Assembly (NCBI GenBank): GCA_025355995.1 | Contig: JANXYQ010000069.1 | Span: 1-64,000 of the forward strand | DNA length: 64,000 nt | From: Spirochaetaceae bacterium | GTDB taxonomy: Bacteria > Spirochaetota > Spirochaetia > Treponematales > Rectinemataceae | Direction: 5' to 3' | Shown: positions 28,438-33,778 of the stretch, piece after piece | Layout of the letters: each line of letters opens with the position of its first letter | Numbering within the stretch: the stretch's first letter is position 1 | The notes under the pieces: model-generated | What the model was told of the DNA's origin: nothing | The model's input: only the letters and a program-made list of their open reading frames with translations | Databases searched by the model: none | Program-made: the position numbers and the translations under genes

Positions 28438-28761
28438 ATGCAAGCCGGCCAATCGCCTAAGATAGTGAACCTCCATGGATCGCTGACCGTGGACCGAGCG
28501 GCTGCCCTCATGGGCGAGATATCCGAGGCCCTCAAGGGAGGCGAGAACGTCCTTCTCAGCATTTCCCTCGTCGAGGACCTCGATTTAGCCTGCCTCCAGG
28601 TGTTCTACGCAGCCAAAGCCGAGGCGCGGGCGGCGGGGAAGGAGCTGCACTTCCTCGGCTCCGTGCCGATGAGGATCTCCAAGCGGCTCGTCGCCTGCGG
28701 CTTCCTGCATGGCGTATCCGAGCATGCCGAGGATTTCGAATCGGCGCTCGTCGGGTTCTAG
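28438..28761 (+). CDS. STAS-domain protein
   Basis: A 107-residue single STAS domain (VNLHGSLTVDRAAALM ... LLSISLVEDLDLACLQVFYAA). In anti-sigma antagonists the loop holds a phosphorylatable Ser in a DSxG context; here it reads EDLDLACLQ, so the usual Ser is not present. Placement directly before cheA, eleven bases apart, indicates a chemotaxis-linked role, perhaps as a scaffold or CheA partner. Confidence 0.85.
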   Translation: MQAGQSPKIVNLHGSLTVDRAAALMGEISEALKGGENVLLSISLVEDLDLACLQVFYAAKAEARAAGKELHFLGSVPMRISKRLVACGFLHGVSEHAEDFESALVGF

Positions 28762-28772
28762 GGGGGGGATCG

Positions 28773-30893
28773 ATGGCGTTATCGATAGATAAATTCAAAT
28801 CGACGTTTCGCGAGGAAGCCTTCGAGCTTCTCGGCCATCTCGAGGACGACTTGCTGGAGCTGGAATCTCAGCCCAAGAACGGCGAGCTCATCAACTCCGC
28901 CTTCCGGGCCATCCACACGGTCAAGGGATCGGCCGCGATGTTCGGTTACGACGCGGTATCCAAATTTGCCCACGAGATGGAGACCGCCCTCGACCTTTGC
29001 CGCAACGGGACCCTGTCGATCACCAAGGATTTCATCGGCCTCGCTCTCAAGGGCCGGGACCAGCTTCGCCAGCTCATGGAATTCGAGGAAGGCGTCCCGA
29101 CGGAGATAGCCAAGGAAAGCGAGTTGCTGCTGCGCCGTTTCGTGGAATTCTCCAAGAGGGGCCAATCTCCCGGCGCGCCCTCCCATGCGGATATCCAAGG
29201 CGCCGGGCCCGTCGATCCCGGGAATTCCTCGCCCAGGAACGCGGAAGCCAAGACCTACCGCATCACCTTCAAGCCGTCGAAGGGGATATTCAAGAATGGC
29301 ACGAGGGTCCTCAACCTAGTCGAGGAGCTGGCGGCGCTCGGAAGGGCGGACGTCTTCCCCCACATGGAGGACGTGCCCCCTCTCGGCGCCCTGGATCCCG
29401 AATCCTGCTACGCCTGGTGGGAGGTATTGCTCTCGGGACCGATCGACGAAAACTCGATACGGGATATCTTCATTTTCGTCGAGGACCAGGCGGACCTTCG
29501 CGTAGAGCAGGTCAAGGAAGAGGCGGACGGATCCTCGAAGAGACTTGGCGATATTCTGGTCGACCGCGGAGCCGTCTCGCCGGGCGCGCTGCGCGAGGCC
29601 CTCGGCTCGCAAAAGAAGCTCGGCGAGGTCCTCATCGAGAAGAATCTCGTATCCACGCCGCAGGTGGAGTCAGCCCTCGTCGAGCAGGAGCACTTGAAGA
29701 AGGGCCAGGAGCGCGTCGAGGCCGCCGCAGGCTCCATACGCGTCGCGAGCGACAAGCTGGACGCGCTCGTCGACCTGGTGGGCGAGCTCGTCACGCTGCA
29801 GGCCAGGCTCGCCCAAACCTCGCTCGACCTTCGCGACGTCTCCCTCTCCTCGGTATCCGAGCAATTCGAGCGCCTCATCTCCCAGCTTCGCGATAATACT
29901 ATGAGCATCCGGATGCTGCCGATCGGGAGCACCTTCAATAAGTTCAGGCGCGTGGTACGCGACCTCTCCCTCGAACTCGGCAAGGAGGCGGAGCTCGCGA
30001 CGGAAGGGGCGGATACGGAGCTCGACAAGACCGTCATCGAGAGGCTCGGCGACCCGCTCGTCCATATCATCCGCAACTCGGTCGACCACGGCATCGAGAT
30101 GCCCGAGGTGCGCGATCTCGCCGGCAAGCCGAAGGCGGGTGTAATCAAGCTCTCGGCTCGCCATTCCGGCGCGTACGTGCTCATACAGGTTTCCGACGAC
30201 GGCAAGGGCCTGGACCGAGAGGCTATCCGCTCCAAGGCCATCGAGCGGGGGCTCATACTCCCGAGCATGGAAATCGCCGACCAGGAGCTCTACCAGCTAA
30301 TCTTCGAACCCGGTTTCTCCACGGCCAAGAAAGTCACCACGGTATCCGGCCGCGGCGTAGGCATGGATGTCGTGAAGAGGGAGATAGACGCCCTCGGCGG
30401 AAGCGCACAGCTGTCGACCGTTCCGGGAGCTGGCATGACGGTTACGCTCAAGATTCCACTCACCCTCGCCATCATCGACGGTTTGCTCATCCGCATCGGC
30501 GGCGAATTCTTCGTCGTGCCGCTCTCCGCCGTGGACGGCTGCATAGAGATACGCCGCGACGATCTCGCGGCCTTGGGCGAGAAGCGCATCATCAGCTACC
30601 GGGACGAGCTGGTTCCCTTCGTGAGCCTCAGGGGCTTCTACGAATTCGCGGCGGAGGGCGAGGGGGAGCCGGAGATAGAGCAGATGGTGATCGTCTCGGC
30701 CCAGGATTACCGGATCGGCCTCGTCGTCGATCAGGTGATCGGCGATTACCAGACCGTCATCAAGCCGCTCGGGCGCATGTACCGCGATGTAGACGGGGTT
30801 TCGGGCGCGACGATCCTGGGGGACGGCACGGTCGCCCTCGTCCTCGACGTCAATCGCCTCGCCCTCGTCGTCCAGCGGGAGAGCGTGAGGTAG
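28773..30893 (+). CDS. cheA: Chemotaxis histidine kinase CheA with MshEN-like insert
   Basis: A 706-residue class II kinase. Domains: P1 Hpt with phosphohistidine His48 (AIHTVKGSAAMFGY), a P2-like domain (about 160-245), an insert at 257-305, dimerisation P3 (about 310-385), ATPase P4 (HIIRNSVDHGIE N-box, VSDDGKGLD, GRGVGMDVV) and P5 CheW-like (about 565-700). The insert holds two tandem 24-residue motifs, 257-280 (RLGDILVDRGAVS then L, L and Q) and 282-305 (KLGEVLIEKNLVS then V, L and Q), matching the published MshEN cyclic-di-GMP-binding consensus RLGxxLLxxGxLSxxxLxxxLxxQ. It phosphorylates CheY and CheB in response to chemoreceptors. Confidence 0.95.
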   Translation: MALSIDKFKSTFREEAFELLGHLEDDLLELESQPKNGELINSAFRAIHTVKGSAAMFGYDAVSKFAHEMETALDLCRNGTLSITKDFIGLALKGRDQLRQLMEFEEGVPTEIAKESELLLRRFVEFSKRGQSPGAPSHADIQGAGPVDPGNSSPRNAEAKTYRITFKPSKGIFKNGTRVLNLVEELAALGRADVFPHMEDVPPLGALDPESCYAWWEVLLSGPIDENSIRDIFIFVEDQADLRVEQVKEEADGSSKRLGDILVDRGAVSPGALREALGSQKKLGEVLIEKNLVSTPQVESALVEQEHLKKGQERVEAAAGSIRVASDKLDALVDLVGELVTLQARLAQTSLDLRDVSLSSVSEQFERLISQLRDNTMSIRMLPIGSTFNKFRRVVRDLSLELGKEAELATEGADTELDKTVIERLGDPLVHIIRNSVDHGIEMPEVRDLAGKPKAGVIKLSARHSGAYVLIQVSDDGKGLDREAIRSKAIERGLILPSMEIADQELYQLIFEPGFSTAKKVTTVSGRGVGMDVVKREIDALGGSAQLSTVPGAGMTVTLKIPLTLAIIDGLLIRIGGEFFVVPLSAVDGCIEIRRDDLAALGEKRIISYRDELVPFVSLRGFYEFAAEGEGEPEIEQMVIVSAQDYRIGLVVDQVIGDYQTVIKPLGRMYRDVDGVSGATILGDGTVALVLDVNRLALVVQRESVR

Positions 30894-30896
30894 GGC

Positions 30897-31772
30897 ATGG
30901 AAAGCCGAAACGAGGCGGGTGCGCCCGCCACCTCGGGACCAGTCGTCCTCTCGGACCCCGATTTCCACCGGCTGGCCGGATTCATCGAGGGCGAGCTGGG
31001 GATCAGGATGCCCTATACGAAGCGGATCATGCTGGAGTCCCGGCTCCAGAAGAGGCTGCGGCGCTTCGGCTTCGATTCCTATACGAAATACGTCGATTTC
31101 GTCTTCTCGAAGGAGGGTCGCGAGTCGGAGCTCATCAACATGATCGACGCCGTGACCACGAACAAGACGGATTTCTTCCGCGAGGCCGACCACTTCGATT
31201 TCCTCGTCGGGAGGATACTTCCCGCCGCGGAGGCGAAGGACGGGGCGGGAATAGCCCGGCCTTTTTCGGTATGGTCCGCGGGATGCTCTACCGGGGAGGA
31301 GCCGTATACCATCGCGATGGTCCTCGAGGAGAGGAAGGCCGTCGACCCGCGCTTCTCGTACCACATCTTCGCGAGCGACCTCTCGACGCAGGTGCTCGAC
31401 AAGGCGAGGGAAGCCGTGTACGAGGAGGAGAAGGCCGCGGTCGTCCCCCTGAGCTTCAAGAAGAAGTACATGCTCCGGAGCAAGGACAAGGACAAGAGCC
31501 TCGTCCGGATGAAAGGCGAGATCCGCGCCAAGGTCAGATTCGACCGCATCAACTTCATGGACGAGCGATACCCGGTAAGCGAGGCCTTCGACGTCGTGTT
31601 CTGCAGGAACGTCATCATCTATTTCGATCGGCAGGTCCAGGAGTCGATCCTGCGCAAGCTCTGCGCGCACATCCGCCCCGGAGGCTGGCTCATCCTGGGG
31701 CATTCGGAGACCTTGACGGGCATGGAGATGCCGCTCAAGGGTATCGCTCCCACTATCTATGAAAGGCTATGA
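30897..31772 (+). CDS. cheR: Chemotaxis protein methyltransferase CheR
   Basis: A 291-residue SAM-dependent enzyme methylating receptor glutamates. The N-terminal helical domain contains [17 protein letters not shown]; the methyltransferase domain has [17 protein letters not shown] (SAM site), [14 protein letters not shown] and [14 protein letters not shown]. The C-terminus, LGHSETLTG, is typical. It begins three bases after cheA. Twelve extra N-terminal residues rich in Ala and Gly precede the domain. Confidence 0.96.
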
Positions 31773-31785
31773 GGGAGGAGGCTCG

Positions 31786-32862
31786 ATGGGAAGCGTCATC
31801 AGGGTGATGATCGTCGACGACTCCGCCGTCGTCAGGCAGACCCTCAAGGAAGTGCTCGAGTCCGAGCCCGATATCGAGGTGATGGCGGTCGCGGCGGACC
31901 CGATCTTCGCCCTCAAGCGAATGGAGACGGAGATGCCCGACGTCATCATCACCGACGTCGAGATGCCGAGGATGGACGGCCTGACCTTCCTTAAGGCCAT
32001 CATGGAGAAGAATCCCCTCCCGGTAGTCGTCTGCTCGAGCAAGACGGAGGACGGGTCCGGCAACGCCATCCGCGCGCTGGAGTACGGGGCCGTCGAGATC
32101 ATCCAGAAGCCCAAGCTGGGCACCAAGCAATTCCTTGAGGAATCCAAGATGCGGATCTGCGACGCCGTGAGGGCGGCCGACATGAGCCGTGGCAAGCTGA
32201 GCAAGCTCAAGGCCCGCCCGGCGGCTTCCGAGGTGGCGCCCAAGCTCACGGCCGATGTCATGCTCCCCAAGCCCGACAGGAGCATCGTCGAGACGACCGA
32301 AAAAGTCGTGATCGTCGGCGCTTCCACGGGAGGAACCGAAGCCCTCAGGGAATTCCTGGAGGCCTTCCCGGAGGACGCTCCGGGCATCGTCATCGTCCAG
32401 CACATGCCGGAGCACTTCACCGCCGCCTTCGCCAAGCGGCTGGACGGGCTTTGCAGGATCAACGTCAAGGAAGCCGAGGACAACGACACCGTCATACGCG
32501 GCCGCGCCCTCATCGCGCCGGGGAACAAGCACACCCTACTCAAGCGCTCGGGCGCGAGGTACTATGTAGATGTGAAGGAAGGCCCCCTCGTATGCCGTCA
32601 CCGGCCGAGCGTGGACGTGCTCTTCAGGTCGGCGGCGCGGTACGCCGGGAAGAACGCGATCGGCGTCATCATGACGGGTATGGGAGACGACGGTTCCCGG
32701 GGGATGCGAGAGATGCACGACGGGGGCGCTTATACGATCGCCCAAGACGAGGCGTCCTGCGTCGTCTTCGGGATGCCCAACGAAGCGATCAAGCTGGGCG
32801 GCGTCGACCTGGTCCTAAGCCTCGGGTCGATCGCCCAGGAAGTCCAGCGCAGGACGAGATGA
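31786..32862 (+). CDS. cheB: Chemotaxis response regulator protein-glutamate methylesterase CheB
   Basis: A 358-residue protein with an N-terminal receiver (phosphoacceptor Asp57, [12 protein letters not shown]) and a C-terminal methylesterase with the Ser-His-Asp triad in [19 protein letters not shown] and [10 protein letters not shown]. It removes methyl groups from receptors, balancing CheR. I chose ATG 31786 over in-frame ATG 31759 because GGGAGGAGG lies eight bases before it and the longer form overlaps cheR. Confidence 0.96.
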
Positions 32863-32919: not shown

Positions 32920-33288
32920 ATGCCAAAGAAGATACTTATCGTAGACGATTCCGCCGCGATTCGGCAGAGCATCTCCTTCATCCTGACCCAGGAGGGCTAC
33001 GAGACCATCGAGGCGACCGACGGACTCGAGGCGCTCACGATGCTCGGCTCGATCGAAGCCTTGGATCTTATAATCACGGACGTCAACATGCCGAACCTCG
33101 ACGGCATCGGCTTCATCCGCAAGGCGAGGGAACTGGCGAAGTTCAAGTTCACGCCGATCCTCGTCCTCACCACCGAGTCCCAGGGTTCCAAGATGAACGA
33201 GGGCAAGGAGGCCGGCGCCACCGGATGGATCGTTAAGCCCTTCAACTCGGATAAGCTGCTCGGGATCGTCAAGAAAGTAGCCGAGTGA
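32920..33288 (+). CDS. cheY: Chemotaxis response regulator CheY
   Basis: A 122-residue single receiver domain. Acidic pocket VDD near residue 9, phosphoacceptor Asp54 (IITDVNMPNLDG), Thr in VLTTES and Lys in WIVKPFN are all present. Phospho-CheY binds the flagellar switch. A GGAGAGAGAC site precedes ATG 32920, and a 57-base gap separates it from cheB. Confidence 0.95.
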   Translation: MPKKILIVDDSAAIRQSISFILTQEGYETIEATDGLEALTMLGSIEALDLIITDVNMPNLDGIGFIRKARELAKFKFTPILVLTTESQGSKMNEGKEAGATGWIVKPFNSDKLLGIVKKVAE

Positions 33289-33298
33289 GAGGGGCGGT

Positions 33299-33778
33299 AT
33301 GAACGGCGAATCGACGGGAAGGTACCTCGCCTTCGATCTCGGGGGACAATGCTTCGCCGTAGACGTATCCAGGGTCGAAGTGGTGCTTGAAACCGTGCCT
33401 ATCACGCGCGTGCCCAAGGCGCCTGCGCACCTCCGAGGCGTCATCAACTATCGCGGGGCCGTCATCCCCGTGGCCGACCTGCTGGTCCGCTTCGGGGAGG
33501 AGCGGACCGCGCTGGGCGCGCTCACCAGGATAATCGTCCTCCAGGTCCGGTACGGCCAGGAAGACATAACGATCGGCATGCTCGCCGACACTGTGCGCGA
33601 AGTGATTGACCTGGATCCGGCGCGAGTCGAGCGGCCGCCGCAGGTGGGGGCGCGAATCTCCGATACCCTGATAAAGGGCATCGGAGAGAGCGGAGGCGAG
33701 TTCATAATCGTGCTCGACATCGACGAAGCGTTCAAGGCCGAGGCCTCGGCGGTAGAGCGGGGGACGGAACAGCGGTGA
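33299..33778 (+). CDS. cheW: Chemotaxis coupling protein CheW
   Basis: A 159-residue CheW that links receptors with CheA. The fold is shown by YLAFDLGGQCFAVDVSRVEVVLE, the diagnostic LRGVINYRGAVIPVADLLVRFG and the closing DIDEAF. The last 15 residues are a polar tail. Its end overlaps the next gene (GTGA). Confidence 0.95.
   Translation: MNGESTGRYLAFDLGGQCFAVDVSRVEVVLETVPITRVPKAPAHLRGVINYRGAVIPVADLLVRFGEERTALGALTRIIVLQVRYGQEDITIGMLADTVREVIDLDPARVERPPQVGARISDTLIKGIGESGGEFIIVLDIDEAFKAEASAVERGTEQR

Follow-up and report, generated by a model that had tools for sequence, protein, structure and literature searches.

Can a CheA kinase read cyclic-di-GMP (c-di-GMP) within its own polypeptide? To our knowledge, the known links between c-di-GMP and chemotaxis act through side proteins, and a c-di-GMP-binding adaptor reportedly acts on a chemotaxis methyltransferase. 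The available text of PMC10782961 describes CheA as lacking a sensor (input) domain. The question is raised by a cheA gene at 28773..30893 in the window analysed here (the whole stretch of 64,000 nucleotides; all features below lie on its + strand). An initial annotation had claimed that the CheA protein carries two 24-residue motifs of the c-di-GMP-binding MshEN type, at residues 257-280 and 282-305, and that c-di-GMP and motility control might meet there. We find that interpretation, taken as a whole, partly supported.

The gene encodes 706 aa, which Pfam, NCBIfam and the predicted fold together resolve as P1-P2-MshEN-P3-P4-P5, P2 being putative. A Pfam scan identified the P1 (Hpt) domain (residues 10-100, 28800..29072; PF01627, E 1.5e-15), the P3 dimerization domain (H-kinase_dim, residues 321-379, 29733..29909; PF02895, E 5.4e-12), the P4 ATP-binding domain (HATPase_c, residues 427-564, 30051..30464; PF02518, E 1.7e-17) and the P5 CheW-like domain (residues 570-696, 30480..30860; PF01584, E 4e-24). 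This order, Hpt, dimerization, HATPase_c and CheW, is that of CheA histidine kinases. The alignment to NCBIfam PRK10547 spans residues 4-700, with a score under the cut-off of that model. PDB structures of CheA match the full-length model, and H48 lies in an invariant column of 18 aligned CheAs.

The initial annotation had placed the motifs between P2 and P3. P2 had no Pfam match in this CheA, Pfam CheY-binding gave weak matches in three of 16 relatives (best E 0.061), and homology of the region to known P2 sequences is not demonstrable by sequence comparison. The full-length model predicts a beta-alpha-beta-beta-alpha-beta fold for residues 160-247 (29250..29513), and among the PDB matches of the same model is 2lp4, an E. 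coli structure of P1 with CheY/P2, which corresponds to P1 and this region (E 8.1e-8). By its predicted fold, then, the insert appears to sit between a P2-like domain and P3.

Positions 29541-29687 lie in the cheA frame, contain no stop and read RLGDILVDRGAVSPGALREALGSQ-K-KLGEVLIEKNLVSTPQVESALVEQ. Motif I (residues 257-280, 29541..29612) has R257, L258, G259, G266, L273, L277 and Q280; a single spacer residue, K281 (29613..29615), separates it from motif II (residues 282-305, 29616..29687), with K282, L283, G284, N291, V298, L302 and Q305. The translation agrees with the two motifs as annotated, and so does NF053729, the NCBIfam curated c-di-GMP motif model (53 positions, cut-off 38 bits). NF053729 matched residues 257-305 of the whole CheA above its cut-off (E 1.2e-11, 44.2 bits), a 64-residue linker piece (E 5.5e-14, 51.7 bits) and all 18 members of the compact-linker alignment described below. 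Every key position is kept in motif I, where the changes are conservative. For motif II, the Lys in place of Arg and the Asn in place of Gly had been listed correctly, and Val at position 17 has to be added to that list.

The Pfam MshEN family, PF05157, gave no match to this CheA up to E 10 and none in a search across the whole genome, and it is absent from the Pfam families listed for 18 relatives. Searching PDB sequences by phmmer with a 67-residue query recovered PilF (E 7.7e-10) and MshE 5htl (E 4.7e-5). Shuffling the linker 200,000 times never preserved the two ligand sets together, and the 24-mer pattern, sought in all six frames of the window, matched at these two places only. On this sequence evidence, the tandem motif in CheA is not due to chance.

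An AlphaFold2 model of the linker, built on 18 aligned linkers, consists of four helices (model residues 9-15, 21-28, 34-40 and 46-63; mean pLDDT 83.5). Foldseek returned 27 PDB matches up to E 10, and the nine best chains are all c-di-GMP-bound MshE 5htl or PilF domains. The best of them, 5htl_B, superposed with an rmsd of 1.1 A, a TMq of 0.72 and a probability of 1.00, but the model is short and the E value no better than 0.039. In VIA-align, 5htl_A reached Z 9.4 and 2d28 (XpsE, a non-binder) Z 7.5, scores that are to be read knowing that helical bundles may score high by chance and that the best unrelated row here had Z 3.4. The full-length model (pLDDT 72.7, pTM 0.45) places the helices at 258-264, 270-277, 283-289 and 295-319 and begins P3 at 326. 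Its fourth helix includes a C-terminal extension toward P3 (residues 306-319, 29688..29729), and confidence drops below 50 at the MshEN/P3 junction (residues 315-324). The sequence itself may have biased AlphaFold toward MshEN. A comparison of structures had been proposed with the initial annotation; it came out in favour of the MshEN four-helix bundle, and we are close to certain that residues 257-305 form an MshEN_N-like domain of this predicted kind.

A fold match is no proof of function, since the non-binder XpsE also reaches Z 7.5. The linker may instead be a degenerate MshEN fold that no longer binds c-di-GMP and acts as a rigid spacer or a protein-docking face, as the Xanthomonas PilB N-domain does in docking PilZ. 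The fold recurs in the N-domains of XpsE and of Xanthomonas PilB (the latter solved together with PilZ), and XpsE has lost c-di-GMP binding (PMC5013675, available text). We consider such degeneration less likely than binding but likelier than the other alternatives, and the spacer and the ligand positions both bear on it.

The main departure from known MshEN domains had gone unmentioned in the initial annotation: the motifs are one residue apart instead of the canonical five, in a canonical domain of 53 residues. Five residues join the two motifs of MshE (PMC5013675, available text), and phmmer opened a four-residue gap between the motifs when it aligned CheA with MshE. Its alignment with PilF 302-359 contains a longer spacer than in this CheA, so spacer length varies within the MshEN family. 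Vibrio cholerae MshEN_N (PDB 5HTL) and the CheA module are alike in their two 24-residue motifs, in the ligand-contact pattern and, at the rmsd of 1.1 A given above, in the predicted four-helix bundle. They differ in the spacer (1 in CheA, 5 in MshE), in the Asn for Gly of motif II and in the MshEN_C half, which CheA lacks; MshE, moreover, is a pilus ATPase. Thermus thermophilus PilF GSPII-B (8pdk, 8pfa) has the fold predicted for the CheA module and carries at position 1 of its motif I the Lys that CheA has in motif II. Unlike CheA, it begins motif II with Leu and has a longer spacer and a C-terminal subdomain. In the MshE and PilF literature, as far as its available text goes, we found no c-di-GMP binder with a spacer as short as one residue.

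The short spacer is common among CheAs. By hand count, the motif starts are exactly 25 residues apart in 39 of 101 aligned CheAs, and a one-residue spacer occurs in 44 of 121 CheA rows once paralogs are added. Filtering at 80% identity left 33 non-redundant compact linkers, of which 25 have Lys as the spacer residue and eight have Arg. Because it recurs across CheAs and is always Lys or Arg, we regard the short spacer as an old and stable feature and not a local accident. Because the spacer is 1 and not 5, we filed the module as a compact variant and not as canonical MshEN. Of the two turn glycines (G18 and G47 in MshE), the first is kept as G266 in motif I, and Asn291 stands in place of the second; only 12 of the 33 compact linkers have the motif II turn Gly. 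Both turn glycines are present in the compact Geobacter form and in L196, a CheA linker with a spacer of 5. In MshE, Leu or Ile at the turn glycines weakened binding (PMC5013675, available text). The short spacer and a motif II without its Gly both fit a degenerate linker. Compact linkers also carry Arg or Lys at motif I position 9 (30/33) and Glu at motif II position 23 (31/33). L013, L014 and L164 have Tyr and Gly at these two positions, so a salt bridge between Arg/Lys and Glu, peculiar to the compact form, is possible.

Work on binding and non-binding MshEN domains, in the text available to us, provides a yardstick for the ligand positions. PilF GSPII-B binds c-di-GMP with a KD of 6 nM while carrying Lys and Leu at position 1 of its motifs, and the consensus at this position has been widened to R/K/L (PMC11731258). 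In PilF GSPII-A, the position 3 Gly is needed for high affinity, both Gln residues matter, Ile is tolerated at positions 17 and 21, and a change of the first Gln of the His, Lys or Arg type accompanies loss of binding (PMC12002112). The isolated MshEN_N half of MshE suffices for binding, with a KD of 0.35 uM (PMC5013675). We therefore took R/K/L-h-G-h-h-Q in both motifs as the ligand test, and scored Val at motif II position 17 as hydrophobic by analogy with the Ile tolerated in PilF GSPII-A.

By sequence comparison, this CheA has acceptable residues at all twelve ligand-contact positions and passes the test. Of the non-redundant compact linkers, 18 of 32 pass as well, and 33 of 47 do when redundant ones are included; both counts leave out L043, whose second motif is one residue short. 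The Lys for Arg substitution, which the initial annotation had listed, is harmless in known binders, as PilF GSPII-B binds with Lys at position 1. The PilF data (R/K/L at position 1; Ile tolerated at 17) led us to reject Lys282 and Val298 as defects of the site.

The 14 linkers that failed deviate mainly in motif I. Its first Gln is replaced by His, Lys or Arg in eight of them, as in eight of the 33 compact linkers overall, and a charged or His residue occupies motif I position 21 in five of the failing ones, overlapping with the first-Gln changes. Motif II is thus better kept than motif I, and some members of the compact family may be weak binders or non-binders. Both models end helix 2 at residue 277, so Q280 falls in a turn and its contact may weaken. 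Nor does a perfect consensus guarantee binding, since the full PilF GSPII-A domain with restored motifs remained a non-binder (PMC12002112, available text).

How do these patterns bear on a degenerate linker? The replaced first Gln in 8/33 fits it, and the non-contact positions A20 and E23 of motif II are conserved like ligand positions. Against it, the guanine-contacting Gly at position 3, changed in XpsE, is invariant in both motifs of all 33 compact linkers. Of the 33, 32 keep the final Gln of motif II, all but L043 with its one-residue slip, and this CheA retains the full ligand set. In favour of binding, polar contact columns vary less than the remaining columns outside the core (p 0.003 by Mann-Whitney, with kinship ignored).

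The same glycines bear on the identity of the ligand. In MshE, specificity depends on two Gly-Asp amide pairs, and cGAMP was bound more weakly (PMC5013675, available text); specificity of this kind leaves some room for a module that binds another nucleotide or small ligand and not c-di-GMP. Those Gly residues are unchanged in CheA, however, and we identified 36 GGDEF places in the genome, which make c-di-GMP the obvious ligand, so we give a different ligand very little credence. The genome also holds seven PilZ places and seven FliG-type places, and its GGDEF and PilZ places together indicate that the messenger system is present.

We consider that this CheA probably binds c-di-GMP, in cis or across the dimer. 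In favour are the NF053729 score, the homology to PDB sequences, the predicted fold, the twelve ligand positions, the conserved Gly and Gln residues and the GGDEF and PilZ places; against are the one-residue spacer, Asn291, the end of helix 2 at 277 and the changed first Gln in 8/33 relatives. In the arrangement that we propose, two helical hairpins in residues 257-305 would form a four-helix bundle that sandwiches one c-di-GMP, as in MshE and PilF. One guanine would be surrounded by R257, L273, L277 and L283, and the other by K282, L258, V298 and L302. The amides after L258 and L283 would read the guanines, while Q280 and Q305 would hold ribose and phosphate.

The bound ligand might also be shared between chains, in a swapped bundle with motif I from one chain and motif II from the other, tightening the dimer near P3. 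The module does lie directly before the dimerization helices, and distant taxa share its register of 25, as would suit such a swap. The monomer model nevertheless closes in cis, at 1.1 A to 5htl, and binding in trans seems improbable to us.

We lean slightly toward a full mechanism in which a compact MshEN receptor feeds c-di-GMP directly into CheA. The module would lie between the P1-P2 half, for phosphotransfer and CheY docking, and the catalytic P3-P4-P5 half. By pinning the two hairpins together, c-di-GMP would make the link from P2 to P3 more rigid immediately ahead of the dimerization helices; this would alter the access of P1 to P4, and kinase output would be set by c-di-GMP independently of the chemoreceptors. 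We infer this conformational effect from the sequence, position, predicted fold and conservation that we observed, and any sign given to it, or any behaviour it might serve, would be conditional in the same way. The confidence that we attach to the fold, to binding and to the mechanism is a matter of judgement and was not computed. If the mechanism holds, c-di-GMP would be wired directly to the CheA kinase in many environmental bacteria.

The initial annotation had also suggested that the motif may be widespread among CheAs, and loci of the source organism's order, of its phylum and of other phyla indeed carry the tandem. Spirochaete MAGs among the relatives suggest that the source organism is itself a spirochaete, from the order that includes Treponema. 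NF053729 matched in 43 of 146 genomes of the order, mostly in CheA-sized open frames; the other matches were stand-alone proteins whose motifs are 5 or 7 residues apart. Across the phylum, 234 of 247 genomes matched a profile that joins MshEN to P3, for which P3 alone is enough. By hand count, the match starts at profile position 11 or earlier, before or just inside MshEN, in at least 76 of the 247. Among 20 hand-chosen stretches of these, 16 contain the tandem, with spacers, judged by eye, of 1 (four), 2 (three), 5 (four), 6 (one) and at least 10 (four); L189, L191, L197 and L198 contain none. From other genomes we took the best 80 of 566 loci, named ones and an uneven sample. Among these best 80, Geobacter and other Desulfuromonadales have compact linkers, as do one MAG each of Desulfobacteraceae, Deferribacteraceae and a gammaproteobacterium and two spirochaete MAGs; Methylomicrobium and a few proteobacterial MAGs have long-spacer forms. 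These sequences support a widespread MshEN module in CheA.

We then placed the spacer classes on a quick P3-P5 tree of 121 rows, from which the linker was left out and which was midpoint-rooted and drew a long-branch warning. All 44 compact rows fall inside one group of 62 (SH-aLRT 98), and they span spirochaetes, Geobacter relatives, a Deferribacter relative and a gammaproteobacterium. The group also holds rows with long spacers, spacer 0 and spacer 3, nine labelled 'none' and two labelled 'half'. Spacer labels were set by hand for L052, L053, L071 (first motif only), L086, L092, L101, L113, L153 and L166 and confirmed by hand for L045; L089 is labelled 'half?' in the tree though it has a tandem with a long spacer. 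CheAs with spacers of 5 and 2 lie outside the group of 62 on their own branches. Because of the long branches and the midpoint root, the number of gains is unsure. The paralogs with spacers of 5 or 2 in the order resemble this CheA in having an MshEN tandem before P3, and differ from it in their canonical or near-canonical spacing and tree branches. These second CheA types comprise L154, L155, L157, L166 and L169 (spacer 5) and L026, L170 and L171 (spacer 2; L171 is not in the tree).

From this distribution we put forward, tentatively and at somewhat less than even confidence, that a whole class of CheA in spirochaetes, Desulfuromonadales and relatives, Deferribacteraceae and at least one gammaproteobacterium carries a compact, one-residue-spacer c-di-GMP receptor before its dimerization helices. 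It would act without chemoreceptors or adaptors and form a subtype of its own, with sites possibly shared across the dimer. If so, this class would be an exception to the description of CheA as a kinase without an input domain.

The pairing of MshEN with CheA is not new in kind. CheA is named among the domains combined with MshEN by Wang et al. 2016, who also found that several intact MshEN proteins bound c-di-GMP (PMC5013675, available text), and our module has the same domain and host pairing as their MshEN-containing CheA; NCBIfam flags it as well. In the open-licence literature, as far as the available texts go, theirs is the sole statement of MshEN in CheA that we found, and we found no report there of an MshEN-bearing CheA binding c-di-GMP. 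The main text of a 2023 survey of CheA architectures mentions neither MshEN, T2SSE nor c-di-GMP. In the available portions, GspE is the one MshEN protein in an inventory of Leptospira c-di-GMP proteins, and a review of c-di-GMP receptors covers MshEN but does not place it in CheA. The suggestion that the motif had been overlooked thus holds for the 2023 survey, but not for Wang et al. or NCBIfam.

The gene lies in a cluster ordered STAS-cheA-cheR-cheB-cheY-cheW, followed by a hybrid kinase. A small STAS-domain protein is encoded directly upstream of cheA (28438..28761; STAS_2, E 1.3e-11), and downstream lie cheR (30897..31772; CheR, E 4.3e-57), cheB (31759..32862; CheB_methylest, E 5.8e-66), a cheY-like single-domain receiver (32920..33288; Response_reg, E 2.5e-25) and cheW (33299..33778; CheW, E 9e-30). 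A link to flagellar motility had been drawn in the initial annotation and gains nothing from this neighbourhood, where no flagellar protein was found among the seven neighbouring proteins scanned by Pfam. Of 38 compact-MshEN CheA loci, 23 have a similar STAS gene nearby, against none of 61 loci without the module, in loci that differ in length, which hints that the STAS protein is a fixed partner of the compact-MshEN CheA.

MshEN-like tandems also occur outside CheA. L001 (in the same genome, contig C124), L173, L175 and L179 are tiny stand-alone proteins in frames of about 70-175 aa, with little beyond an MshEN-like tandem with a 7-residue spacer, the second motif of which lacks the final Gln. 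L151 and L152, stand-alone frames from the order, carry a C-terminal MshEN tandem with a spacer of 5. Of the 18 compact linkers, 12 also match TIGR03029, the model of the EpsG tyrosine kinase, which suggests that the EpsG family has an MshEN-like stretch inside.
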